Assembly (NCBI GenBank): GCA_963402885.1
Contig: OY727094.1
Location: 5,954,501-6,018,500 of the forward strand
Direction of reading: 5' to 3'
Length of the DNA: 64,000 bases
DNA from: Antedon bifida
Taxonomy: Eukaryota > Echinodermata > Crinoidea > Comatulida > Antedonidae
The position numbers were made by a program, and so were the translations under genes. The notes under the pieces are model-generated. The model ran no database searches, was not told the DNA's origin, and was given only the letters and a program-made list of their open reading frames with translations. Numbering within the stretch: the first letter of the stretch is position 1; every line of letters starts with the position of its first letter. Below, piece by piece: positions 16,065 through 48,700 of the stretch.

Positions 16065-19000
16065 TCAACTTATTTTTAACTGGCTGTTGTAAACTTGATG
16101 AACTCGGTCTTGCACAAGTGCCAAAGCAGTAGTGTAAGCTTTCCTCCATTTATCATCTCCAGTTTTGTTAGTGTACCTAGAAAACAAAACAAAAATGTTG
16201 GCAATTTTCTTTTGATGTAGTAGGGTGGTGATAGTTGCCTTTATATCATTGTACAGTATATACTTGCACCCAATCCCAGAATAGCTTTACTTTGAGCTGC
16301 AAAGGGATCAATGCTGGAATGAAGGCAGTACTGGAATGAAGGCAGTGAGAGATATCTGACTGAAGGAAACAAAGGTCAAGAAAAGAGGTTGATTCATTAA
16401 TAAACTGAAAATTAAAAGAAGAAAGACTTACCTTTTCAAAGCCTTCAAAAGAAGATCTACTTTCACCAGATTCCTTTCCAAGACCAACTCTTGGAGGAAT
16501 GATACCACCAGACCTAGATCATCATCTCGAGGGAACTCGCTAGTTTCAATCCACTCTACAATAAGAGCCTTCACCTCCTCTACTTCAATGGCTCCATTAA
16601 GATTTGCTCTCTGTGTTCCTTCTTCATCTTTCTTTTTCTTTACATCATCTTTTATTTCAATTTGTTCCGCAACTTTTTTATCATTTGGTTTATTGATATT
16701 ATGTTTATTGTCATCAGATTTATTAGTATCATTAACAATTTGGTTTTCTTTAATTGGACTACTTTTTATCATAGCATTAATCTTTGGTTGATTCTTTTCA
16801 AACAGTTTCCTAGGACTTGTTTTCTTTGGTCTACCTCTCCGCTTGACAGCAAAGGGGCTGAGTTTCCCTGGTGTAAGTTTGCGTGGAGATGGCGAGTGTT
16901 TGGTCAGACTAGGCTTAGGTGGAAACAGTTTGACTGGACTTTGTTCATTGATGAGTTGTTCATGTTTCAACTCTTTTTGTAAATATGCCTTTTTCAATTC
17001 TTCCTTCATGTCTGGTGGTAGGGCATCCAAACACGATGGTTCAATCTGTAGAGAAAAAAAAGATTTAATTATAATAGATAGAGTTTGTATGTTTGTTCGT
17101 CATAAAAATTGTCCCAACATCATGCATCCATACACATACAGTAGACTATCAAAATGGGAAGGTTTATATGAAATTTGTAGGAAGGTTATCAACTACCATA
17201 GCCTGGGTGCAGAACAGTTAATATACACATTTGCAGGAAAAAAGTATAGGAAAATTTTTTTTTGGTTTTTCTGATAGAGTATACCATATAGAATGTCAGA
17301 AAAAAAATCCCCATCCCAGGGTCTTGGGGAAAATTTGTTACGGCACTTTTAAATTTTGGCCTATATAACACACACACATTCCTATTAACACACACAAATA
17401 CCTATATATAGGGGATAGGGAAAATCAATTAACAGTTTTTGTTACTTTGAGTTGTGTTTTAATGATTAAAATTAGTAGAGGCTTACTTTAATAACTACTT
17501 CTCATAGTAGTCGATGAATCAAGTCGATACGATGACATCATCATGCCAGAATCCAATATGGCGTCCAATTTGGCGGGAAAAATAGGGTATTGCTAAACCC
17601 CGCAAACCCCCGCAAACCTCCAAAAAAACATAGCAAACCCCACCGAACCAACAAAAAAGTGATTGAATCATGAATTGTACGACCCACTGGGTATATAAAA
17701 TATTAAATTTCTACTGTTAACTACTTATTTTGGGGATAAAACATCATTTTTTGGTTAAAAATTAGAAATCATTTTTTACCAAAAAATGATGTTTTACCCC
17801 CAAAATAAGTAGTTAACACTAGAAATTTAATTTTTGTTTACATGGATATACCCAGTGGGTCGTACACTATATGATTCAATCACTTTTATTATGTTGGTTC
17901 GGTGGGGTTTGCTATATTTTTTTGGAGGTTTGCAGGGTTTAGCAATCATTTTTGACCAAAAAATTATGTTTTACCCCAAAAATAAGTAGTTAACAGTAGA
18001 AATTTAATTTTTTTTTTACATGGGTATACCCAGTGGGTTGTACACTACATGATTCAATCACTTTTATGTTGGTTCGGTGGGGTTTTCTATGTTTTTTTAG
18101 AGGTTTGCGGGGGTTTGCGGGAAGTTAGCAATACCCTGTTTTTCCTGCCAAATTGGACGCCATATTGGATTCTGGCATGATGATGTCATTGTTATCGACT
18201 CGATTTATCAACTACTATGAGAAGTAGTTTTTAAAGTAAGCCTCAGCTAATTTTAATCATCATAACACAACTCCAAGTAAAAAAAAACGTGAATTGGTTT
18301 TCCCTATCCCCTATATATAGGTATTTGTGTGTGTTAATAAGAATTTGTGTGTGTTATATAGACCAAAATTTAAAAGTGCCGTAAAAAATTTTCCCCAAGA
18401 CCCTGGGATGGGGATTTTTTTTCTGACATTCTATATGGTATACTCTATCAGAAAAACCCAAAAAAAATTTTCCTATACTTTTTTCACGCTAAATTTGTAC
18501 TGCACCCAGGCTACCAGAGCAGGCTGGAGGAAAGGTACCCACTGAATGGTGGGTATTTGATCTAGTTTTTTTTTTTCCAAAACTAAACTTTTTAAACAAA
18601 CAAATATTTTCACCTGAGAGAGGTTAGGAAGTGCTTCAACTCGTCCTGATAGTTTCTCCTCTTCCATCCTACTCTTTTTATTGGCCAGAAGCTCTTGTAC
18701 AATATCGTCTGGTAATTCCTTAAGAATGCTAGGATCTACATCCAGTAACTCTTCTTTCTTTGGTGAAGCATGTTCTGATTGCATAGCAGTTCTTGAAGTT
18801 GTTGGTTGGTCGTAGTCTGGTTTTGGGAGTTTGGCAGGAACTGGTGTACTCGTCAACGTAGGCTTGTGGTTTATATTTGTTTTTGAGGGTAAAAAGCTGT
18901 TTTGGATTTGAAGCTTCATGTCTGGTGGTAGGGCATCCAAACATGATGGTTCAATCTGTAGAGAAAAAAATATTAACATGAGATTATCAAACAATCAATT

Positions 19001-22000
19001 TAAATTTTTTACCAAAACATAAAATTTGTAACAACAAAAATTGTCACCTGAGCGAGGTTAGGAAGTGCTTCAACTGGTCCTTCTGATGCTTTCTTCTCCT
19101 GGATCCTACTCGTTTTATTGGCCAGAAGCTCTTGTACAATATCGTCTGGTAATTCCTTAAGAATGCTAGGATCTACATCCAGTAACTCTTCTTTCTTTGG
19201 TGAAGCATGTCCTGATTGCATAGCAGTTCTTGAAGTTGTTGGTTGGTTGTAGTCTGGTTTTGGGAGTTTGACAGGAACTGGTGTACTCGTCAACGTAGGC
19301 TTGTGGTTTATATTTGTTTTTGTTGGTAAAAAGCTGTTTTGGATTTGAAGCTTTATGTCTGGTGGAAGTGCATCTAAGACTGATGCGTCAATCTAGAGAA
19401 AAGAAAATACACATATGGTTGAGAAGGGTTGGTAGTGTTTAAGCTAACAGCTTAAACCATGGTGTCAAGTGAACCGTGGAAGATTATACTTTGTTGGTTG
19501 GGAAAATCAATAAATAATAAATTGTCTTCTTACTTCAGCTATAGAAGATGGATAGAAGTCTGACTTTGTAACTGCTTCCTCTTTTGCTGGAGATGGCATC
19601 AGTGTTGGCAACTTTGGCAGAACATCTTCACCACCAATGTTTGATGTTTCAGCTGGTAGCTTGTCTGGTATAGCAACCTCCTTTTGGATCACATTTGTGT
19701 TGTCAATCTGCTTTTGAAGAAAGTTCATCATTGTCTTTGGTGCAGACTTCTTGACAACTGGTTGAACATCAGGAATTGGAAACACAGATGGTGTTTTGTT
19801 ACCAGTTGTTACAAAGTCTTTGAGGGATTTAGTTCCTATTGCGGCTGGATGTCTTAGATCTCCAGATTCTGGAACAAGTTTGTTTATTTGAACACCAACC
19901 TTCAAACAGAAATAGAGAGTTGAGTTTAAAATATAGAGTAGTACAGTAGGGAAGTTGATTATAATGATGTGGAGCCTAGAGCAATAGAACGGCTATTCTG
20001 GTTTGGCATTGATTTTATCGAATTTTGTCCTGGTCATAGGTAAGGTACAAGCAAATAATTGTTACATTTAAATTTGTTGGGTTTATTCACTTACTCCTCT
20101 CATGTCACTAGGCTCAATCTTCATCTGTCTAAGCAGGCCTAATACTGCTTCCTTGAGCACATTCAAGTCATTTGTGGCCTGTGCTAAGTTGACAGATTTG
20201 GCTAAATTGTTGCAGATCCCATGGCCTAGGAACTTGGAGGATTCCTTTGGAGCTCCTGGTTTTCGAACCTTCATTTTCAAAGTGATAAGTTTGCCTTTCA
20301 TAGATATTTTGAGTAAACGACGATGTACCTCTTCTGTGACCTCGCTCACAAAATCTATAGATTCACTTTCCTGTAAATAACAAAAGATATCTTGAGAAGC
20401 ACAAATCATACAAAAAAGCCAACCTGAAAAGAACATTTCCAAGAGGAAACCAATTTTGATATTTATGGAAATCAAGAAATTATTTTACTACCGACATACT
20501 GTACCTTGGTGAATCTAATTCCATAATTTATTTCTGCAGACACAGATTTCCTTTGCTTCTCCGCTTGTATGGCACGATCATCTTTACCTCGACAGAGATT
20601 GTACAAATGTTCACCAGTTTTTGCGCCAAATTCTCTTTGTAATTTGAGCATGGATACAAGCTGCAAATCTTTACATGTAGTAACTTTGAGAGCTTCTAAG
20701 CGCCTCTTTGTAGACCAACCAACTCCTTCAAAGATAATGTTGTTGAGGGTGTAAAAAGGTTATGAAAATTAAAGATACTGGTTTTTATTCAAGATTTTTC
20801 TATACTATAGAACCCTTTTGAGAGGACACCTTCGGGACCAACCAATAGTCCCCTTAATAGGGATGTTCCCTGAATAGTGGTAGGTTGTAGTGTTAAATCA
20901 CATTCCCCATGTTTCTTTGTTGACAGAAAATTATCCCTTTAATATGGGTATCACCGCAATTCGGTTCTCAAAGGAGTTCTATTGAATACTGTACTTCCAA
21001 TTTCTGTACCTGGTAGATTTCCAACTGGTTGTGTTTTGATAAAGTCCATTTCTTGACCAGTTTCCAAGAGATGCTGTCCATTTGGTTTAGCAATTCTAGT
21101 GGACATTCTTGCCAACAAGATATTATGAGCTGAAAGAGTAAAAGAATTTATCTAATAGTATTTTGAATATTGTTCCATGACTACTACAAGTTTAAATTTA
21201 GATTGTGTCAAAATACCAGGATTTTGCTTTTCAGAAAAAATAAAAAACATACCTATACCAATAGAAGCGTTGCACTTTGTTTCTTTGTAAACTTCATCAC
21301 GCAACAAGGATGCAAACTCAAGAGGGGTTGCCATGGTGTCACTTAGCAACTCGGTGATGTCAACAAACATCTCGTCACAACTGACAGCTTCAATATCATG
21401 AGTGTATCTGTGATTTAGAATAAAATATTGTTTTATAAGTCAATGTTATGAACTCTGACCTGTGCTAGGTCATTTTGAGTGTTATTAGCTCATCAGATAC
21501 AGACCTTTAGTCACGTGGCAACAAGGTCACAGCCACTCACTCGCTTAATAATTCTACTGTAGAATGAAACATTCTAATAAATTATATTCCTTGTACAATC
21601 ACATACTTAAAAATAATTAAATAATAATAGTTTTTGGACTGTACCATTTATGGAGAGGGTGTTTAATGAATTTTCTACTTTTTTAGTATATCTCACTCAT
21701 CAAGGAGAACAAGGCCATTGTTGGTTTATCCAGGTAAGCTACAAAATAGACTCAACAATTACCTGGCAACAATCCCATATAGCTTTTGTGCCACTTCTTT
21801 GTACATATCAAAATCATATGGTATTGTCTGAATCGATGGACACCGCTTCTTTGCTTCTCCCATGAACATACCATTCCGTACACCAGCTGCTCTTGCTTCA
21901 TAGCTACAGGATGCTATCTCTGCAGCAGAATTAAACACACCAGGGTTACTTTTACTTTCATCCGATGTCCTTGTGTCATCCATCATTGTTTTCCCATACT

Positions 22001-24116
22001 TGTTTTGATAGTAATCCATTTCATATTTCTTGGCTTCAAGATTGACTTGCTGCATGCCATTGCCACGAGAGTGAGTGACAGCAACTGGTTTTCCTCTTAA
22101 CTCTGGCCGATTGATCAATCCAACCGATACAAAGAAGCAGTCCATGTCCACATGCATAATGTAGCGTTCAGATTCTTTCCTCTTAGTGGAGGAATCAGGC
22201 TTATGACTCATCAATTTTGGTGGCTTCATGCTATCTTTCTCTCCCAGAGAATCATCTTCTTCCAAGACATCTTCTTGGTCTACACAATCTTCTCTAACAT
22301 TATTCCTTAAGGAATCTCTTGCTGGAAACGTTCCATCGCCTTGTTTTTGCAACTGCATCACTAGTTCTTTAAACTCAGCTCCCCAGCTGGATATGTGGTG
22401 AAGTCTAGAATTATTATAAAACTCTGCAACAAATCTTGGATCACCAGCTTTTGCTGGAGAGGTCTTTTTAACATCACTTGGTGGTGAGGGCAATTTCTTG
22501 GTATTCTCCACATTTTTCTGATGACTATCTTCAGTATTCTGATCTGGATATTCCAATTCTGTTGTGCCTTCCAGATTCTGCTTGCTGGGCAATGCATTAA
22601 AAATGTCGCTATGATTTACTTCTTCAGAGGTGTTCTTTGGCAAGTCGTCATGATTTGTTGTACAGTTTACAGAATTTGTTGACGATTGTTGAAAAGATAA
22701 CGACTTTTGTAGAGATGTTCGGTTTTCATAGAGCTGGTAGGAGTCACATGGTAATAGACGGCCTGCTTTGATACTGCAAATATAATTTTGAAACATATTA
22801 CATATTTGACAATATCAAAACACTTTGGAAACTAACCTACATTTAAATGTATTGTCTTCATAAAAAAAATGATTTAAAATGAAGATAAATAAATCAGACT
22901 TTGAATAGGCCTAATAAAGTTATTCACAATTGTTTTTGTTCTTTAAAGTTCACAAACTGACAGTAAGCCTACTGGTTTATAGATATTAGGTAGCTTTCGA
23001 TTTGAGAATACCGACAGTCAGGTCAATTGATGTGTTGTCGGTTGTCACAGTCATGACCCCCGTAAACTCCCGTTGGATTAACACGGTCTTGGGTTGTTAT
23101 CAAAAACTCTATATTATTTGATTCACCTGTCCAAAATCCACTCTGGTCTGATAACTTTTTCATCGCTAAGCTTCCTAATCTTGGCATGTGGCAAGTTGGT
23201 AGCGATGATGTGTGTCACTTGTGTCTTTCGATAGTAGTGTACAAACTTCCCTCCATGAATCATCATTAGTCTTTTGAGTTCATCTAAAGATGGCACTATC
23301 AAGAACAATAATTTACTGTAATTAATTTGTATAATAAAAGTATAATTTTACCAGTACCTTGTTTTTTATAGGGACCTAGACTCACACAGACTAGTGAGTG
23401 GCCAAGCGGTTAAGAATATGGAAGTAAGTATCACTCGCTCAATGGTTCTGTTGGTAGAACAAGTCTTCTCGGAAAATGTGTTAGGGCCGTGAAGGTTTCC
23501 CTTTAATAGGGGTTCTACCAGATACCTGTGTAGCCATTCACATGGATTGCAACGCCCTCAAAGATGGTGGATCCAGCGCAAGAAATTTCCCGGTTGCGTG
23601 GCTGTTCTTTTGTAAACTGCTCGTCAAGTTTATGTTGCTTGGCTGCCATGTAGCCTCCCTATGAGGGAATGAAAGAAAAATGTAAAGTGGACAAATTAAA
23701 GAGTTTATGTCTGCAAGGGATATAACTGTGCTGAGGACCGTGTGTACAGTAGGGCCTAACTAAAGGGTCTTTCACATCTGTTCCGGTACGTTTCCAGCCC
23801 GGCGCCGGAAAATCCAATCGAACGTCAATGTTTCGTTTTCATGCGGCTACGCGCACATCGATTGGCGCATAGCCATGTGGAGCGTTGTGAAAACGAAACA
23901 TTCATGTTCGATTCGCCGGACCGGAACCGTGCAGGAACAGGTGTGAAAGACCCTTTCCTAAGGATCCCTGTGATTTTGAATAAAAGATTGAATTAAATAA
24001 TGAGTGCATGTATTTGTTTATTTTTGCTACAAAAAAATATGAAAGAAGAATTGTACTAAAGCACCCCAGCCGTCATCTTGGCCTCCACGTTTCTGTCCAG
24101 TTCCTCTTCGTGACAT
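16065..24116 (-). CDS. REV1: REV1 translesion DNA polymerase / deoxycytidyl transferase
   Basis: Y-family polymerase that inserts dCMP opposite lesions and scaffolds other translesion polymerases. Coding exons on the minus strand: 24116-24057, 23658-23526, 23295-23127, 22773-21763, 21407-21253, 21129-21010, 20725-20505, 20370-20095, 19899-19534, 19392-19048, 18955-18614, 17045-16432, 16176-16065. They give 1307 residues (human REV1 has 1251). Order: N-terminal GGYMAAK; BRCT (about 50-125); N-digit with SRLHHIS; catalytic MHVDMDCFF (Asp near 330) and SCDE (near 467-470); little finger; five UBM-like LP motifs (about 838-1085); C-terminal interaction domain ending LKIS, matching human LKVT. The ATG at 24116-24114 follows an acceptor, so a noncoding first exon lies upstream. 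All catalytic residues are intact. Confidence 0.96.
16432..17045 (-). CDS. REV1: REV1 exon: last UBM, basic linker, C-terminal domain start
   Basis: Starts with EPSCLDALPPDMKEELKKAY, matching human UBM2. A Ser/Pro/Lys-rich linker with KRRGRPKK (AT-hook or nuclear localisation-like) follows. It ends in VEEVKALIVEWIETS, the start of the helical C-terminal domain that binds REV7 and the inserter polymerases. The domain is completed by the last exon. Confidence 0.92.
17199..18513. mobile_element. Long foldback (inverted-repeat) element in a REV1 intron
   Basis: About 1.3 kb with near-perfect inverted arms of several hundred bp. The left end is TAGCCTGGGTGCAG (17199) and the right end CTGCACCCAGGCTA (about 18500-18513). 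The arms share the ATATATAGGGGATAGGGAAA block and the CCAATATGGCGTCCAATTTG block. The centre holds a second palindrome near 17735-17815 and a partial duplication of the inner arm (17955-18120). CCA flanks both sides and may be a target duplication. No transposase is visible, so it is non-autonomous; the superfamily is unknown. Confidence 0.85.
18614..18955 (-). CDS. REV1: REV1 UBM exon, duplicated chimeric copy
   Basis: A phase 0-0 exon of 342 nt, separated by a 92-bp intron from its sister. From about codon 15 it is nearly identical to exon 19048-19392, including DPSILKELPDDIVQEL. Its first 42 nt and its acceptor instead match the next exon (17045-16432), giving IEPSCLDALPPDMK. The switch lies inside the shared UBM core. 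The exon adds two UBM-like motifs and keeps a full open frame with good GT/AG sites. Confidence 0.9.
19048..19392 (-). CDS. REV1: REV1 UBM exon, original copy
   Basis: A phase 0-0 exon of 345 nt (115 codons). Two UBM-like motifs are visible: SVLDALPPDIKLQIQ near its start, matching human UBM1, and DPSILKELPDDIVQEL in its second half. UBMs bind ubiquitin through the invariant Leu-Pro and recruit REV1 to ubiquitinated PCNA. Because the exon has symmetrical phase it can be duplicated or skipped without a frameshift. Confidence 0.9.
20806..20994. mobile_element. MITE-B copy (CCCCTTAATAG-type) in a REV1 intron
   Basis: An inverted repeat beginning TATAGAACCC and ending GGAGTTCTATTGAATACTG, with internal GTCCCCTTAATAGGG. 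Related copies occur at 26884-26965, 30890-31110, 37228-37402, 39935-39985 and 61021-61200. Confidence 0.6.
21763..22773 (-). CDS. REV1: REV1 large exon: linker, N-digit, first part of the palm
   Basis: A 1011-nt exon. It starts in the end of the BRCT segment (IKAGRLLPCDSYQLY), passes through a disordered Ser/Asp/Lys-rich linker, then FYNNSRLHHISSW. In this motif the Arg matches the human residue that pairs with incoming dCTP. It continues into MHVDMDCFFVSVG with the first catalytic Asp pair, and on to AEIASCSYEARAAGVRNGMF of the fingers. REV1-specific insertion sequence (NLEAKKYEMDYYQNKYGK) is also present. Confidence 0.93.
23395..23430 (+). repeat. Half-tRNA-like fragment in a REV1 intron
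   Basis: GTGGCCAAGCGGTTAAG matches the 5' half of Leu/Ser-type tRNAs. No 3' half with GGTTCAA follows, so it is a fragment or a SINE head, not a working tRNA. Confidence 0.3.
23762..23957. mobile_element. MITE-C copy (TTTCACATCTGTTCCGG ends)
   Basis: About 196 bp palindromic element: AAAGGGTCTTTCACATCTG on the left, its complement on the right, and internal CGTTTTC/GAAAACG arms. It is notably GC-rich for this locus. A second copy lies at 28318-28482. Confidence 0.75.
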
Positions 24117-36700: not shown

Positions 36701-39700
36701 CTATAAATTATTCCTAGTAATACTATATTACTCTTCTAAGTTTAATTGTGTTTTTTCCTACATTGATTAGTTTTTCTGTGTAAATTTTAGATATTTTCTT
36801 TAAATGAATAGTGTAAGCTTTTAAAGTACCTACTTATTGGTATATTATACAAAACATTTGTCTATAGAAATAGATTATCAGAGTGATATCATCTTTTTTG
36901 TAATTCAACTTTAGTAGTTTAAAAATAAACTGTGTTGTTGTGCTAATATTATTAGCTATAGGTTTGAAATGGCTTTTTTCAAAACAAAATATAGCATGTT
37001 CGATTTTGTGTTCAGTTTTCTAACATTACAATTTGATAAAAGTTTGTTTATTTTAAAATACAGTATAACGGATGAAATTAATTTTATAAATTGCTTATTT
37101 AATAATTTATATGTCTATATATTCCAAATTTATTTGTTGTAATTCTTTATTATTTTGTATAAATTTTTATATAAAGGAAATATGAATAATGAAAAAACAA
37201 AAGTTAAATTTAGGTTTAATCAGTAATACAGTATAACCTCTATTAAGGGGACATCTTTGAGACCCAAAAAAGTATCTTTATACTATACAGTAGGTGTGTA
37301 CCTGAAAGAATTGACTTCAGTGTTTAAACATAATATTGCCCTTGTTTGTTTCATAGGAAAAAATCCACTATGTAGGGGTGTCCCAATGGAGGAGTTCTAC
37401 TATAAAAGTGACCATGAAACTGTGAGATAAGATAAAGTTATAACTACCTGTATAGACATTACACATTTCCGAGGTTTACACAAAAATACTGTTATGAAAG
37501 TTTCCAAAAATAAAATAAATTTAAACAAATTTAAATTAAAATAAAGTTTACTTCCAGATTCTATCCACTATATAATTTCACTTTTATTATGACGAATATT
37601 TTAATATTTTCAGAATGAATCTCGGAACATTGAGATGCTCGCTGCAGCCTGTGCTGTTGGCGTATCGTGCAACTTTGCCGCACCGATAGGTGGCGTTCTT
37701 TTTAGTATAGAAGTAACTTCAACATATTTTGCTGTTAGGAATTACTGGCGTGGGTTTTTTGGTGCTGTGTGCGGTGCTTTTGTATTCAGACTTCTTGCAG
37801 TGTGGAATCAGGAAGAAGGTATCAACTTTATGTGACAAAAAAATGTGATGTGCCCATATATAGACATGATGATGTCATATCACTACCATATTTGGCATAT
37901 CACTACCATATTTGGCATATCACACTTTTTTTGTCAAACCCGTTTGATGTGTAGAGCAAAGGGAGTGGGAGGGTGCGGAAGGGAGTCAAAAGGGAAAGAT
38001 CAAGGTTATCTAACAACAGTAGTCTGAGCTTGCCTTGCCAAGATAGGAAATCGTAACAGCCCTTTGATCTTATGTCTGGCTGCTACAAATATCAGAACAG
38101 TTAGGCCTACTGTACATATTGTAATTGACAATGATATGCATGGAGAGCTTATGTTATGTTAATTTAGATTTAAAGTCACCGTGGAGAGTTGAATGTGTTG
38201 AGATTTATTCATCTGCTGATAAAAAAACTTGAAGAAGATGACATGAAGTGCTTAAGAAAACGTTCAACTCTACGATTTATTTCACTTATTAAGTTGTTCA
38301 TAATGAAAAGTTGTATTGTAGTGTAAAAAAAAGCAAACATTATTACAAATAAGGCAAATTAAAATTATCCTTTGAAAAATGTTGAATTTAAAAAAAGGAG
38401 TAATAATTATTAGAATTTTGACATTTTATTGCTGTTGTATTTTAATAATTTTTTTTTAATTTTTTATATTTTTTTTAGTATTTTTGTTTGAAAGGTACTT
38501 CTAAATGCCAAAGCTGTGTAACAAGAAAACACAAATTAATATTAATTTTCATCAAATCATTTAAAAAAAAAGTATAATGATTAAATTATTTTATGGAATT
38601 ACAATGAAATTATTCTATGTTAAATTTTGTTGTTCTTTTCTTCTTTCAGAGACAATCACTGCATTGTTTAAAACAAATTTTCGAGTTGATTTTCCTTTTG
38701 ATCCACAAGAGTTAATTGCTTTTTCTTTCATTGGGTAAGTTAAAATAAAAATCTGTGGTACTATCATGTTAAGGCCAATTTACAACGATGAGCGGTAACG
38801 GTAGCTTGTCCCATGTAGAATCTGTCTCTATCCTGAGCGGAAACTGATCGTCCACTCCGCATATTGTATAAATGGTCATAAGAAATAACATAGATTCTAT
38901 ATTTTTCGTTACCAATCGTCTGTGTAAATTTACCTTTAGTGATATACTTTCCTGAAACTGATTTTGTCATCTTGCAATTTTTTTTTTCTCTCACAGTGTG
39001 GTTTGTGGATTTGGAGGCGCTTTGTTTGTTTATATTCATCGAAAAATTGTTGATTTTAACCGAAAACATAAAAAGTTTACAAAAATCCTGTTAAAAAAGT
39101 AAGTAATTTTTATGGATTTATGAGTTATTTTCAATATGAAAAATAGATTTATTGTCATTTCATTATTTTATTTCATTGTTATTTAATATATCATTATTTT
39201 TATCAATAATAATATACAGTAAAACTAGTTTTCAATTCACTATGCAACAAACAATATATGTTTTAACACTTAAGCCACAAATCAAATCAAAATCAACATT
39301 TATTTCCAAAAAGGTGGCGTCACCAAAAAAGCAAAAGCTTGTGTCAGGGACGCCAAAACAAAACATTCATAAGCAGAACAGACACTCTGTTGTGTCCAAA
39401 AAGTGTCTCTTAATATTGGTTCTACTGTATGATAATAGTTTTTGCATTGTTATTAAATAGATCACCATTCCTGTCATCTAATAATTATCATATCACATTA
39501 TCAAGATCAATATACTGTAGATCGATGTACCGTATTCCATACCCATTCAGCGTTGTATTATGATTTACCACTTAGATAATGATTCTTCACTTTTTATTTT
39601 TGTTTTCAGTCGTTTTATTTATCCAACATTGGTTGCACTTGTCATCACATCCGTCACATTTCCACTTGGACTTGGACAGTTTATGGCAGCAGAGGTCAGT

Positions 39701-42700
39701 ATAATGTATATTAGTATGTGTACAGTATAACGTGCCTAATTTACATTGATAAACTGACAAAGGCCTTTTCCCTTTCTAGAGAACATAATTTGAAATAGAA
39801 TTAACACTGTGAACGCCCCTCCAAGACAGTGGTATAGTCTGTGAGCCATGCCATCATGTGGGTCTCACTCATGTGTACCTCGCCATTTCATGTGTACCTA
39901 ATTGTTAATATATTATATCTTATCTATTTGATATTACAGTAGAACCCCTCTTTTGGACACTCCTATTAAGGAGACACCCCTATCTGAAATCTTTGTAGAA
40001 CTAGAAAATCCTTCGTTGTAAATAGCATTCATATTTTTAATTCTTATGTAAGATGATAATGCAATTTTTAAATAGTTTTACATTTTTAACAGTTTTTTTT
40101 ATTTTTAACTCTTTATCTTGTATTTTAATCTGTTATACTGTAATACTGCACGTTTTAAATTGTTGCAACATTTTTTATGTTTGTTTTTTATTGTTGTTTT
40201 AATCTACCAAGCAAAGTGAATTTCCATTTTTATAGACAAATAAAATTTCTTGAATCTTAAATCTTCTTGAATCTTGAATCTATTATAGGACCATATCTTG
40301 TGTCCCGAGATGTTCACCTGGGGGTTGTACAGTATTGAATTAATCAATGTTTTTTCATTCTTCTTTGTAGCTGACACAGAAAGATCAAATAGATGAATTA
40401 TTCAGCAATACCACGTGGGTTTTAAAAGAGAAGATAGATGTAGCAACCAGACAAGATCCGGCCACGTACTGGGAAAACCCAAATGTGTTTGTAACCCTTG
40501 TTAGCTTTATAGTCATGCAGGTACATTTATAAATTATTATTTATGATTTGAAATTGTAAATGTACTTCAAAGTTGTTGTCCTACTAACTTGTAAAAGTGC
40601 AAATATAAAAGACACTTTTCCAATCTGCAAAAAGTAACAACTTGTAACCAGGTTTGTATTAACAAGGCACTTTTGTGGGAAAACACACCAGTGGGAGCCT
40701 TTTTATTCCGAGTTGTTACTGCACATGTGCAATTGCCTTCATGTTTAACTGACCAATGACAGTACATGCATAATAATTAAATAGATCCTAACTATAGTTT
40801 CTCTCAAGATTTCAAAAGATTTGTGTATGTAAACTTGTAAAGCTCTGTCTACACTATACAACTAGATTGACCAAAAAAAAGTGTGATATGATATCATCAT
40901 CTCCATATATGAGCACATCACATTTTTTTGTCACATAAAGGTTGATAGTGTAGACAGAGCTTAATAATTTATTCAGTGTGAAAAGGGTATAAAACAGTTC
41001 TGTTTACATTTTTAGTTTTGGATGGTGGCGCTTGCCATCACGTTGCCTGTACCAGCTGGTGTCTTCATGCCTGTATTCATCATTGGCGCTGCTTTTGGAC
41101 GTCTTGTTGGTGAGAGTATGTCCGCATGGTTTCCAAACGGAATTAACAGTGGCCCTTTGGTAATAAATAATATCGTTCCTGGCGGATACGCTGTTGTAGG
41201 TAAGTTTAATCCGGTCATTTCTCGTACATTTAAAATATCGAAGTATCAATGGCTACCATGCAGTTACTAATTATTCTCAAACAACACAGGTTTGTAGTTC
41301 ATCATCAGTGGTATTGAATGTGCATAGAAATTGTTTGTTTTTCTGGTAGTTTGATCAAGTATATAAAATGTGCTATTTAATAATTATATATTTGTACTTT
41401 GTTTGATGCCCAGTTTGCTACAGCTACCCTTCTTGGTTTCACAGAGATTATTGCAATTCCATAAGGTTCATCTAATCCACCATCATCATATATTCGTTTG
41501 AGAAAAACTCCATTTTGATCAAATAATTGAAGTTTGTTATCACTTGATACCAAGAGGTTTTCCTCAGAATCTATAGCTACATAATGAGGATATTGAACAT
41601 GACCATCTTCCTCACCTTTGCCTACAAGAATTTTCATAAACTTATCATTTGCATCAAACATTTGTATTCTGTGATTTCTAAATTCTACAACAATCAGGTT
41701 GCCCTCCTTTGTCAGAGCAAGTCCATCTGGGCAATACATTTCTCCTTCTTTGCTACCTTGTGAACCAAATTTACCAACAAGTTCACCACTATCAACATTA
41801 AATTTAAACACACAATGACATTTCCAATCTGCAACATACATGGTTCTAGTTTCCTTATTCACTGACAATCCACGTGGTTGTTTTAATGTTCCTTTACCAA
41901 ATGTACGAATTTGTTGAAATTTATCATCACATTTGACAACAGTTTTGTTTAGGCTATCACTATACACCATTTGGCCATTACTCATTTGATGTATACGAAC
42001 AACCTTTACATTGTCTGGTATCTCTATTCTACCAATGAATGAACATTCTTGATTGAACTTCAATAAGTCTTTACTAAAACTAGTTACAATTAAATTGCCT
42101 TCTTTATCTAATATTACATCATTTACTTTTGCATCCTTGTTATGTACTTTAAGCTTTCCTATCTTATCAATGGTATGCACAAGTCCTAGCGCTTCCACCT
42201 TGATATTCACTGGTGATCCTTTGATTTCTTCTCTTCTAGCAGTAATCTTCATCTTCCAATCTCCTTCTTTATGACATCTTCCTGTTATTCTGTACTCTCC
42301 ACTTCCTTGATGTTTCACTTCAGCTGATTCTTCACCTGATTCATTAATTAAAGTTGCAGCCAATGCAGATTTCTCACTTTCTACTGAACTTGACACAACT
42401 TTCACTTCAAATGGCTGTCCTTTTGTGACTATAATAGGTACTTTATCTTCAGCAACCTCATATGCACATTCAAAATTTGCCATTTTACCAATGCCTTCCA
42501 AATCTATTAATTTATCCAAGTTTTTAGATGGAATGAAAATAGGTACTTTTATCTTGATTGAGACATCATACTTTGATTCCAGAGTTTCTTCTTTAACAGC
42601 ATCAATATTTTCCTCATGAGATCTAAGTGTTTCTCTTTCTTCTGGTTTGTTCATCATTGTGTTAATTAATGGCAACATCTCATTAACTTTCAACAGCTTT

Positions 42701-45700
42701 GAGTCAATATTTTTAACTCTATTATCAATAAGCTCTTTGTTTTCTTTGTCAATTTTGTCAAGGTCCATCAACAGTGCTCTTGTTTTCTCCTGAGCCTTTT
42801 TAATAATGTTTTCTTCTTGTAATTCAATCGCTGTTCTGCATAATTTTAATTTTAATTCAAAGTCGGATCTTTCTTTCATGAAGCTTTCCCTTGTTCCTTT
42901 TAGTTTTTCTTTAATTTCTTCCGCACTTTTTATAACTTCTGTAGCATTTTTATTAAACTCGTCTACAGCCATCTTGAATGGAATCACATTATGTTCATTT
43001 TGATAACAGCGTAAAACGTGTTCACATTTCTTACATCCACTTTTAAGACAAATTCTGCAATAAAATTCAAGCATGCAGTCCCTGTGATATATGCATTTAT
43101 GTGGCAGATCTTTACCTTCTCCTTGAATTTTGTCCAGTGTGTACAATGGGTGGTTTTTCAATACAGGAATGATTTTATGATGTGTAATACATTGTCCACA
43201 TAGATACATTTGACATTCAGAGCAGTAGTATTCAGGTTGCTTATCACAGCTTGAGCACTTTGGTGGTTTTTCAGATTCAATATTCCCAACAAATTTAACT
43301 TGATAACTTAACATTTCATTGGTAGTAAGATCTTTCAAATCAAATTGATTTAGGTCATCGTATGTCTTACAACATTTTGGACATTTTATTTTGCCGCTTG
43401 TTTTAATCAAACTCTGCAGGCAATGAAGACAGTAACTATGGAGGCACTCAAGTGTTTTTGGTTCTGTCAGTCTTTCTAGACAGATTGCACATTCAAGATC
43501 ATTCTTGTCTAAGAATTGTAATGCTTTTTGTTCCGACATCTGTAAAAAATGAAAGTCTATAATTTATAAATAAAGCTATCTATTAAATATCTTAATATTA
43601 TGTTATGTGCATATATTGAACAATTTGTGCAATTTAAAATTGTGCAAGGATAAGTGTACAGATTATTTTGATTATTAAAAAAAATGCTACAGTACAATAA
43701 TAATAAAACTTACTATGATTAAATAAGTTATAAGAAACAAAGGTGACAAAAGCAGCTAGACATTAGTATAAATTTGAGCTAATCTAGGCACAGAAAACCA
43801 GGAAGTGATGTCATAGTCTAAAAATACTTTAATTTCCAAAATATTCAGTAGCTGTTGCTAATTGGCTAATGCAAGGATAGTTATGTTGTATTTATAGAAG
43901 AAGGTTTATTTGTATATTAAGTGCTTACATTTTTTTGCACATTTGGCGTATCATAAGATTTTGTGGACCATGACCGAAGCACTTCCGCTTTCGATCGATC
44001 TGACAAAATCAAAATAAGCTGATCACTTTTTAGGTGATCATTTAGAATAAAATGATCACCTATTGTTATTGTATAAAATCTTTATTATTATTTTTTTTCT
44101 TTTTATTGTTTCTGTACACTATTTTGTGTAACAATTATCTCAAAAAGTTTAATGTCAATGATTACAAAAATTTCAGAATATCTTTCAAATAATATAACTT
44201 AATCCTAATAAGCTTTCCAGCGTGATCACTCATCCGTGACGACATTTATACGCCATTTTGCGAAATCACATTATCAATCATATCTCCATAATTCATTATC
44301 TTATATTAATGAAATTCACTACACGTAAACTTCAGATCAAGGGTAAAAATATTAGCAAATAAAAACGCACGCGCACGTAGGTTCATGCGCGTGATATCGC
44401 GCGTTAAAAATTTAAAACGCTCAAAATTAAGTTTTGATCAATTTAGAGCATGAATTAAGGCCATTTGCGTGTTTCAAAAAATTACTGCGCAAAAATGCGT
44501 TTTTGCGCGCGCGATACTTAAAAAGCGTAAAAAATATGAATTTTGTTTACAAATCTCATTCTACTCACCATCCTTAGTACATTCACCAAATTTGAGTCAG
44601 TTCCGACTTAAAATAACGCTATACGAGCACGTTAAAAATGACAAAATGCGCACATTAATTTTACAAAAGTTCTGAAAATGGTGAAAAATAGGTCTTTTTT
44701 AAAATGAAAATAATTCTTCAGAATGCAAGATGACCCCCGATTTTTTTAACTTATTCTGGAAGCCATTGAGTTGTAGATATGAATTGACGTCATCAAATGG
44801 CCACTTGAATTTAAAAATTAGGATTTGTTATCTTTTTGTGTAGATTATCACATTCAACAGAGCGCATCTTGGTTATGTGTGCTCGAATTTCGCACAACTT
44901 TCAGTATGTGCTTGCTTAATTAATTATCTTTATCATGAGTTGACACTATCTTCATTTTAATGACGTCATCACGCGTAAAAACTTGAATAACGTAGGCCGT
45001 GTAATTTCACCTTCGCAGTAAATTTGAATATCTTACAGCTCTTCAGAATTGAAGGTTACCTTGATGATTATAATTTATTATGAAAGCTGATGAAATGTAG
45101 ATATTAATTCATATAAAAATTAAGCCTATCGGATGTTGTGACGTTAACATATGGCCAGTTAAAGTGAAAAAGTAGTTTTTTCATATTTTTCGTCAAAGTT
45201 ATTCACAATTCAAAGAGCGCGCACAGCGCTTCTACGTGCCAAATTTTTTTCCAAATCTTATATTTTTTTGCTCAATTAATTATCTTACGAAATTGTCATC
45301 TTAAAGTTTAGTTTGATAACGTCATCATGCCAAAAAATTAGAACATGTGTGTCCCGTAATTTCACCTATGCTACACTGTATATAGATATACAGTATATAC
45401 TGTACATATTGTATATGGCATATAGGCACAACTCAGCACTATAAGCATATAATAGGATGGCATACATCAACATTTTCCGATCGTATGTTAACGTACGTGC
45501 ATGTTTAAAAAAAAATTAATTTCAGTAAAATGATAAAAATGATCACCTATAATTCGTCAAAGTGACGAATTAAATTCTAGTTTACTTTATTTTTCAAATA
45601 ATTATGTAATGGTGATGTAACAACAGGGATATCGATACATTAAATATTGTTGTTTAATACAAGCATATTTTCTTTATATAAACTGTATTTTTTTAAATGA

Positions 45701-48700
45701 CAATAGAACTTAATTTTGCAATAGTACTTAATTTGCCGCCTTTAGATGCCAAATTAAGTGCGGTACCTAAAATGGCAGTGGTACATAATTTGGCGTGACA
45801 CGCCCCTTCTGGTTATTTTATTTAATAATGCATAGTCTTTTTGACTTAATCAGTTAAACCAGATTGAAAGGATTGAAAATTGCGCAAGGATAAGTGCACA
45901 GATTATTTTGATTATAAAAAAAAATGTTACATTACAACAATCGGCAATAAAGAATAATAATACTTACTATGATTAAATATAAGAAAGATGAAACAAAGGT
46001 GACAAAAGCAACTAGACGTTAGTATTGTAAAATTTGAGCTAATCTAGGCACAGAAAACCAGGAAGTAATATCAAATTCTAAAAATAGTTTGTTGGACTTT
46101 CCAAAATATTCAGTAGCTGCTGCTGATTGGCTAACGCAAGGATAATTATGTTGTATTTATAGAAGAAGGTTTATTTGTATATTAAGTGCTTATTTGTGTA
46201 AAGTTTGATTACTACAACCCCATGAAATATTTTTGTAACTTTTTAATACAAAATTAAATTTAAAAACTTTAAAAACTTTACTTACATTTATTGTTCAAGT
46301 TTCAAATATTCCATAAAAAGAAAGGATTCAGCTATTTATATTTGCAGTATAAAGTCTACTGATACACATTGCTGTCTTGTCTGATTGGTGGGTTCAATGG
46401 GAGTGGGTGAAACCATTATCATATAGGTGATAACATACTGGTTTAATAACAGCTACATTATTTCCCATATTCAACTCCTTGCTAAAACTGTATCCAAGCA
46501 TAGTCCTACAGATGTTTACATTTTTAAATAACAAATCATTAAACCTATTACATCACATGATGTATTTTTAGTCGCGTGGACGCGACTCTATAGTTCACTA
46601 TGTCGGTCGGTTGGTCTGTCTGTCTGTCGGTCCGGTATCACTATGCGTTTTATCGCTTTGTGACCTTATCTTGATATCAGTTTAATCTAGCTAAGTCAAT
46701 TTTTTACAGAATATTCCTTATGGCCAGGAATCGATGTGGTTATGTTTTCACGGTGCGCAATAAAAAATTACGCGGTCTACGCACGATTTAACGAAATCAC
46801 GTTTGTAATCATATCTTCACAACCATGAATCACAATTAAATAAAATTTGGTACTCATAAATTTCAGGGCATGAATCATCATATGGCAATACAATTACGTG
46901 CGTAGCGCATTTAACACATGCGTACGCGCGCTTACAATTTTCAAAATTTATTTTTGATGAAATAAGAGTACGTTTCAGGCAATTTTAAGCGTTTACAAAA
47001 TTTCCATGAGTGCGCAGGTTTTTGCGCACGCACTGCGCGTTAAATGTTATTGCGCACTCTTTTTGCCCGATTTCTGTTTTCTTGACTTACTTTTTAACTC
47101 GAAATTATGTTATACGAGCACGTCAAAAGTGACAGGCTACGCACGTGTAAATTAAAAAAATATAAATGTTTTTAAACATTTCAACATTTTTAAACATGTT
47201 CAGTAATTTCGGTCAGTATAGTTCACTATGTCGGTCGGTCGGTCTGTCGGTCGGTCGGTCTGTCGGTCTGTCTGTCGGTCCGGTATCACTATGCATTGTA
47301 GCACGCGACTTAATGGCTGTTGGCCTTGTTTATTCACAAACCTAAAAAATATAGTGTTCAATTTATGTTTTAATTAATAAGAAACTAAATACAAAAGTTA
47401 CAATATATAAACTAAAATGCTGAATAATGAGCATATATTAATTTTACCCAGTATACATTATCAATAATTATATATTTTGACTCTGTTTCCTCCATATTCT
47501 ACAACAGCTACTCTCCCTCCATAGATATTATGTTGATCTTTTTTCATAGATATTATGTTGATCTAATGTAACCCAACATTATTGATTTGTTTTATAAAAA
47601 CACAATTGTTATCAAATTGCTGTAGTCTGTGTCTACTTGATACCAGTATGTTCTCATCACAATCATGGCTATATTCTGAGGGTAATAAACCATCTATTCT
47701 ACCGTGCTCTATGAGAATTCTCATAAATTTACCATTTGGATCAAACAGTTGTATTCTGTTATTCGAATGATCTACAACAATCAGGTTCCGTTCCTTTGTG
47801 AGAGCAACATCACTTGGTCACCTCATTTGACCCTCTTTGCTACCTTCTTCACCAATTTAGGCAAGAAAGTCTCCATCACCAACATTAAACTTAAGTGCAC
47901 AGTGAGCTTCTCTGTTGGCCACATATATGGTTTTAATTTTCTTATTTACTGTCAAGCCTCCATGATGTTTTATTATGCAATATATTGTCACAGAAACAGT
48001 TTTGTTTAATAAATAACTATAATATTAGAAAATTATAAATTTTTTTAAAGTTACAAAATTATGTTTTATAATCTTCATGTAATGCGCAATTGATTCCCAG
48101 CCTTTCAAAACAATTGATCAGGTGGTCAGGCCTTAATATTTACTTTACATATTTTGATCTCATTCAAAATCTTTTTTTGTTGAATGTACAAAAAATAAAT
48201 AATAACAAATATGCTTGGTTACATTTTAATAACTTTTATTATTTACTTGATACTATAATTTTATTATATCTTGTTCATATCTAAGAAATGTTGATTTGAT
48301 AAGTTTTACATTATTAACAAATTTAAATAAATTACTAATTATTCTAACAGCACAGGTTTGTTGTTCATCATCAGTGGTATTGAATGTGCATATATAGAAA
48401 TCGTTTGTTTTTCTGGTAGTTTGATCAAGTATATAAATGTGCTATTTAATAATTATATATTTTTACTTTGTTTGATCTCCAGTTTGCTACAGCTACCCTT
48501 CTTGGTTTCTTCGATATTATTGCAATTCCAAAAGGTTCATCTAATCCACCATCATCATATATTCGTTTGAGAAAAACTCCATTTTGATCAAATAATTGAA
48601 GTTTGTTATTACTTGATACCAAGAGGTTTTCCTCAGAATCTATAGCTACATAATGAGGATATTGAACATGACCATCTTCCTCACCTTTGCCTACAAGAAT

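Follow-up and report, generated by a model that had tools for sequence, protein, structure and literature searches.

Part of the recruitment of REV1 to damaged forks depends on its ubiquitin-binding motifs (UBMs), which bind ubiquitinated PCNA, as stated in excerpts of a review and of a Drosophila study (PMC8468184, PMC11309488), and the excerpted review gives it as the general consensus that, among the REV1 UBMs, only UBM2 binds ubiquitin directly (PMC8468184). Tandem exon duplication, for its part, is common, and an excerpt of PMC9013439 cites a report that puts the share of animal genes at about 10%. Here we describe the REV1 gene in a 64,000-nucleotide stretch of contig OY727094.1 of the crinoid Antedon bifida (positions 5,954,501 to 6,018,500 of the forward strand, referred to as the window, whose numbering is used throughout), at which a UBM-encoding exon (exon A) is followed by a near-copy (exon B) whose front resembles the next exon (exon C). 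We consider it probable that this arrangement arose by a 437-bp tandem in-frame duplication within REV1, in which one event joined codons of exon C to codons of exon A, giving five UBM-like motifs with B2, the second motif of exon B, as the main added arm.

The REV1 gene and its hybrid exon

The gene lies on the minus strand and its upstream exons (19534..23347), known as open frames only, give the Pfam domain order BRCT, IMS, HhH and IMS_C. BRCT (E = 4.3e-6) and IMS, as two pieces (8.7e-25 and 5.6e-11), are found in the first of these frames, and HhH/thumb models (1.8e-21 and 3.6e-8) and IMS_C (4.6e-7) in the later ones. An IMS piece also matched the REV1 structure 3gqc (E = 9.1e-52); the PDB chains 3gqc and 5vzm are human, and 5vzm, 6asr and 6axd are mammalian REV1. 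The first part of the C-terminal domain is encoded by exon C (16432..17045), after the UBM2 counterpart and a linker, and the remainder, with the stop codon, by the last coding exon (16065..16176). When spliced, this domain matched Pfam REV1_C (3.9e-12) and the REV1 C-terminal-domain structures (2lsi, E = 4.6e-15), while exon C unspliced scored 26.3 bits, marginally below the REV1_C cut-off of 26.5 bits. The UBM region, including the UBM2 counterpart, is placed between the polymerase core and the C-terminal domain. An open frame between the core and the UBM region (19510-19992) had no Pfam match, and in the prokaryote library NCBIfam, against which two REV1 pieces were searched, the core found nothing but DNA polymerase IV/V relatives far under cut-off and exon C a single match at the level of chance. 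With BRCT, a Y-family polymerase core and the REV1 C-terminal domain in order, the gene is REV1, as it had been named in the preliminary description.

Exon A (19048..19392) encodes 115 amino acids with motif A1, the UBM1 counterpart, motif A2, a middle UBM, and the lead-in ALPNLAQ. Exon B (18614..18955) encodes 114 amino acids with a hybrid motif B1, whose front is that of UBM2 and whose back is that of UBM1, motif B2, with the residues of A2, and the lead-in ALPNLSQ. The two are separated by a 92-nt intron (18956..19047), and an intron of 1568 nt (17046..18613) separates B from C. Exons A, B and C all have AG acceptors and GT donors, and both A and B are of phase 0-0. Aligned over 345 columns, A and B are 93% identical: 319 columns match, 23 mismatch and a single gap takes up 3 nt. 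The spacing between the copies is 437. The exon coordinates, splice sites, phases and near-identity given earlier are therefore confirmed, although the likeness is uneven along the exon. Being adjacent, similar and frame-compatible within one gene, A and B form a tandem exon duplication.

The description of exon B as a recombinant also stands in the nucleotide alignment of the three exons. In its first 42 coding bases B is identical to C at 41, while A and C share 32 of these 42; past base 42 it tracks A, with 286 of 300 aligned bases identical (14 mismatches and the 3-nt gap). The switch region (CCACCAGACATGAAG, 18914..18928) is C-like up to exon base 39, the last position at which B agrees with C against A, and A-like from base 43. 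As all three exons carry CCACCAGACATRAAG at bases 28-42, where R is A in exon A and G in exons B and C, the junction falls between bases 39 and 43, unless base 39 changed later.

The likeness of B and C extends into the acceptor, where 15/15 intronic bases are identical, and the DNA search of the assembly shows acceptor and exon start as a single 57-base match (98%). This acceptor stretch is rich in pyrimidines and, by itself, weak evidence: in local alignment 58 of 1000 shuffles did as well, and 11 of the 15 bases are also shared by the acceptor before A. It is the 41/42 exon bases, not the acceptor bases, that carry the evidence for a C-like front of exon B.

Apart from exon B, the exons of UBM1 and UBM2 (starting at 19392 and 17045) are each preceded by a phase-0 intron and start at the same position of the motif. 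This shared start, together with the 32/42 common bases, hints that UBM1 and UBM2 were themselves born of an older exon duplication.

UBM motifs, predicted competence and splicing

The Leu-Pro signature is present in all five translated motifs (A1, A2, B1, B2 and C), so that A and B carry two UBM-like motifs each and C the fifth, as previously noted. That REV1 has two UBMs agrees with the statement in the excerpted review (PMC8468184) and with chain 5vzm_B, which matches twice. The count of "five in place of two" stood in part: five UBM-like motifs are present, but the five are unequal and the state before the duplication was three, since exon A already carries the middle motif and A and C without the duplication amount to three. 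The predicted UBM count thus went from three to five by duplication.

In 5vzm_B, the alignment partner of A1 is UBM1 (residues 9-30), with which it shares 10/21 residues, against 5/21 with UBM2. Motif C, together with the lead-in ALPNLSQ, aligns to UBM2 of the same chain (ALPAFSQVDPEVFAALP..., residues 80-110), in which the lead-in is ALPAFSQ. The ALPxxSQ lead-in, the order of the motifs and the shared Glu and Tyr identify C as the UBM2 counterpart. For A2, the best matches among solved chains were weak, namely the UBMs of HUWE1 and DNA polymerase iota (E = 0.24 to 0.98), followed by a lac repressor chain (E = 1.2) that is surely there by chance. Against the Pfam UBM model (PF14377, cut-off 23.3 bits), the whole exons A (36.1 bits) and B (27.9 bits) pass, and the single motifs A1, A2, B2 and C gave 8.8e-5, 5.5e-5, 7.7e-5 and 0.021, respectively.

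Several results count against so many functional UBMs or against these assignments. No single motif attains the PF14377 cut-off, B1 alone has no match up to E = 10, and exon C as a whole has no Pfam UBM match. Motif C is barely nearer to UBM2 than to UBM1 of 5vzm_B (20.2 vs 18.9 bits; 9/21 vs 8/21 identical), and the PDB matches of exon A are weak, the best, to the 5vzm_B chain, having E = 0.22. A genome-wide six-frame UBM search, with 7 candidates scored, also missed the REV1 exons, which fell below its threshold. The AlphaFold model of exon B, built from a two-sequence alignment, is poor overall (mean predicted local distance difference test (pLDDT) 67, predicted template modelling score (pTM) 0.21), and its B1 shows only a second helix (11-20) and no first one. 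The best 10-residue blocks of this model are nevertheless at the two motifs (84 and 86), with one linker block reaching 71, and B2 is modelled as a UBM-like helix 76-79, Leu-Pro and helix 83-103.

In the same six-frame search, the only matches above cut-off were three nearby sites on contig 16, which look HUWE1-like by eye (L001-L003).

The contacts of REV1 UBM2 with ubiquitin listed in the review excerpt are V1019, F1020, L1023, P1024, L1027 and E1030 and, closer to the end, L1031 and Y1035 (PMC8468184). The residue at the position of Glu1030 is Glu in A2, B2 and C (3/5) and Gln in A1, B1 and UBM1 of 5vzm_B. Position 1035 is Tyr in C, Phe in A1 and B1, and Lys in A2 and B2; position 1019 is Cys in B1 and C. 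From these residues, A2, B2 and C look competent for ubiquitin binding, and A1 and B1 look weak. As A1 and B1 share their Gln with UBM1, which by consensus does not bind ubiquitin, and B2 has Glu, exon B probably contributes a single good predicted motif (B2), its hybrid B1 being doubtful.

Exon B would then act chiefly as an additional ubiquitin-binding arm on a flexible linker. More competent UBMs could raise the avidity for PCNA with up to three ubiquitins or a chain; for exon B a modest rise for ubiquitinated PCNA would follow, possibly with little effect on fitness. In an excerpt on the fly, a REV1 UBM mutant alone is not sensitive to methyl methanesulfonate (MMS) and is slightly more sensitive when rev3 is also lost (PMC11309488), which cautions against assuming a large effect.

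The frame stays open when exon A, exon B or both are skipped, and the number of UBMs could therefore be altered by splicing. It is conceivable, though we think it unlikely, that A and B exclude each other or are skipped, so that the five motifs are never together and the duplication serves a splicing choice. The phase 0-0 of both exons, with the frame kept in each case of skipping, would suit such a choice, as would their donors, which are both GTGA while that of C is GTAAGT. However, the splice-site dinucleotides of the A-B intron are ordinary, and its 92 nt exceed the minimum intron length for splicing.

Origin of the duplicated exon

In the single-event reading that we prefer, a single misaligned exchange or template switch would have fused exon C, within its UBM2 codons, to exon A, within its UBM1 codons. 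The join would lie at codon 14 of C and codon 14 of A, inside the 14/15-nt match between the UBM1 and UBM2 codons. The product would be A, a hybrid and C, with both introns derived from the former A-C intron, and with the back half of UBM1, the linker, the middle UBM, the lead-in and the front half of UBM2 repeated in frame. Classical homologous exchange usually requires matches far longer than 15 nt, and a replication-linked template switch is therefore as likely here as crossing-over.

The introns around exon B were compared against 1000 shuffles each (dinucleotide shuffles at the donor side). At the donor side, about 38 nt of the A-B and B-C introns align, with an equally good score in 1 of 1000 shuffles, this being one of six comparisons; in the control pair, the A-B intron and the intron before A, 735 of 1000 shuffles were equally good. 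This donor-side homology agrees with the descent of both introns from the old A-C intron. Other observations speak against a single event. It predicts homology at the acceptor side as well, unless indels or insertions erased it, and upstream of the 15 acceptor bases, which are the final 15 nt of the A-B intron and identical to those before C, no homology of the A-B and B-C introns was detectable (684 of 1000 shuffles equally good). Moreover, 39 nt in the middle of the A-B intron match neither the B-C intron nor the intron before A beyond chance.

The divergence of A and B is also uneven, with 5/234 mismatches in bases 43-276 and 9/66 plus the gap in bases 277-345 (Fisher p = 0.0006), and the longest identical run is 98 nt (permutation p = 0.02). 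The uneven divergence and this run suggest gene conversion of the A/B exon core, whereas synonymous differences (1/52 sites in the core and 1/15 in the 3′ part) are too few to be decisive. As the core (2%) is much more alike than the 3′ end (14% and the gap), which a single event alone does not account for, a later conversion or an exchange between diverged alleles may be needed; one idea is that, in such an exchange, old allelic differences became differences between the copies.

An improbable alternative is that two steps were involved, a duplication of the whole of exon A and then a gene conversion by C that overwrote the front of the copy. The homology of the introns before B and C reaches no further than 15 bases upstream of the exons, as expected of a short conversion tract, and the A/B exon core also appears homogenised. 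Two events are required, however, and the A-B intron upstream of the tract should then be like the intron before A. No such likeness was found: 153 of 1000 shuffles were equally good with the pyrimidine tract included, and 961 of 1000 beyond it.

A bolder extension of the single-event reading, to which we give little credence, would see the locus in this lineage as an expandable UBM array, in which unequal exchange adds or removes a module of about 115 residues in frame, copy number perhaps varies between individuals, and splicing sets how many ubiquitins are held on PCNA, one per subunit or as a chain. Such exchange would be made possible by the resemblance of the UBM1 codons to those of UBM2 and by the phase-0 introns that precede the two exons at one and the same motif position.

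An assembly artefact, with two divergent haplotypes of one A-C region joined end to end, is very unlikely. Alleles of a highly heterozygous animal could differ as A and B do (by 2% in the core and by about 14% at the 3′ end), and a haplotype join at a short overlap would yield an identical hybrid. Yet the window sits on a chromosome-sized contig (contig 7, 36.7 Mb) and holds no N, and the introns are mostly unalignable, while alleles usually align better than the A-B and B-C introns do. When the A-B stretch was used as a DNA query against its own assembly (315.6 Mb in 27 contigs; the search scores the best candidates only and skips very common words), only the A-B stretch itself and the start of exon C were returned and no further copy. 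The same result led us to reject a second genomic copy or pseudogene as the source, and chance resemblance is rejected by the match to C at 41/42 bases and to A at 286/300.

Neighbouring features and known systems

The B-C intron contains a 1.3-kb foldback element on the minus strand (17199..18513), resembling a miniature inverted-repeat transposable element, with 14-nt terminal inverted repeats starting with TA. It is nearly palindromic, with 300-nt arms that are 93% complementary and a predicted RNA hairpin of -860 kcal/mol, and could influence the splicing of exon B or serve as a target of RNA editing. Elsewhere in the window, ten copies of TGTCTACACTATCAAACT with at most 2 mismatches were found on both strands (3501, 5635, 13179, 13224, 14908, 15044, 15330, 15436, 40846 and 40939; 0 in 100 shuffles), which are likely the ends of a short inverted-repeat transposon family. 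A long TRIM-type open frame at 41380-43563 on the minus strand has RING, B-box and NHL matches above cut-off and a filamin match just below it, and another open frame (47563-47817) is NHL-like by eye. An exon of a voltage-gated chloride channel (CLC) gene is present at 37605-37832 on the plus strand (Pfam, 2.5e-15).

Among the matches listed, open-licence papers held no description of a hybrid UBM exon formed by exchange between copies of one motif, and in the open-licence literature we found nothing on REV1 UBMs in echinoderms or on a REV1 with three UBMs. A natural REV1 with extra UBMs would make it easy to ask whether translesion synthesis is limited by valency.

The gene resembles mammalian REV1 (PDB 5vzm, 6asr, 6axd) in its domain order, its recognisable UBM1 and UBM2 and the ALPxxSQ lead-in to UBM2, but mammalian REV1 has two UBMs, whereas an extra middle UBM and the duplicated exon bring the number here to five. 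Drosophila REV1, as presented in the excerpted study, likewise has a UBM alongside the BRCT, transferase and C-terminal domains but only a single one (PMC11309488); with one UBM in the fly and two in the reviewed REV1, UBM number varies among animals. HUWE1 (PDB 2mul, 9plr) also has several UBM-like stretches per protein, although it is a ubiquitin ligase and not a polymerase. As in the tandem exon duplications of animals described in the excerpt of PMC9013439, the exon copies lie head to tail within one gene, but here the junction is inside the repeated motif and the exon is a hybrid of its two neighbours. Tandem duplication itself is known; the special point of this locus is a hybrid exon, probably the product of an exchange in which two copies of the same motif took part, of which it offers a clean example.

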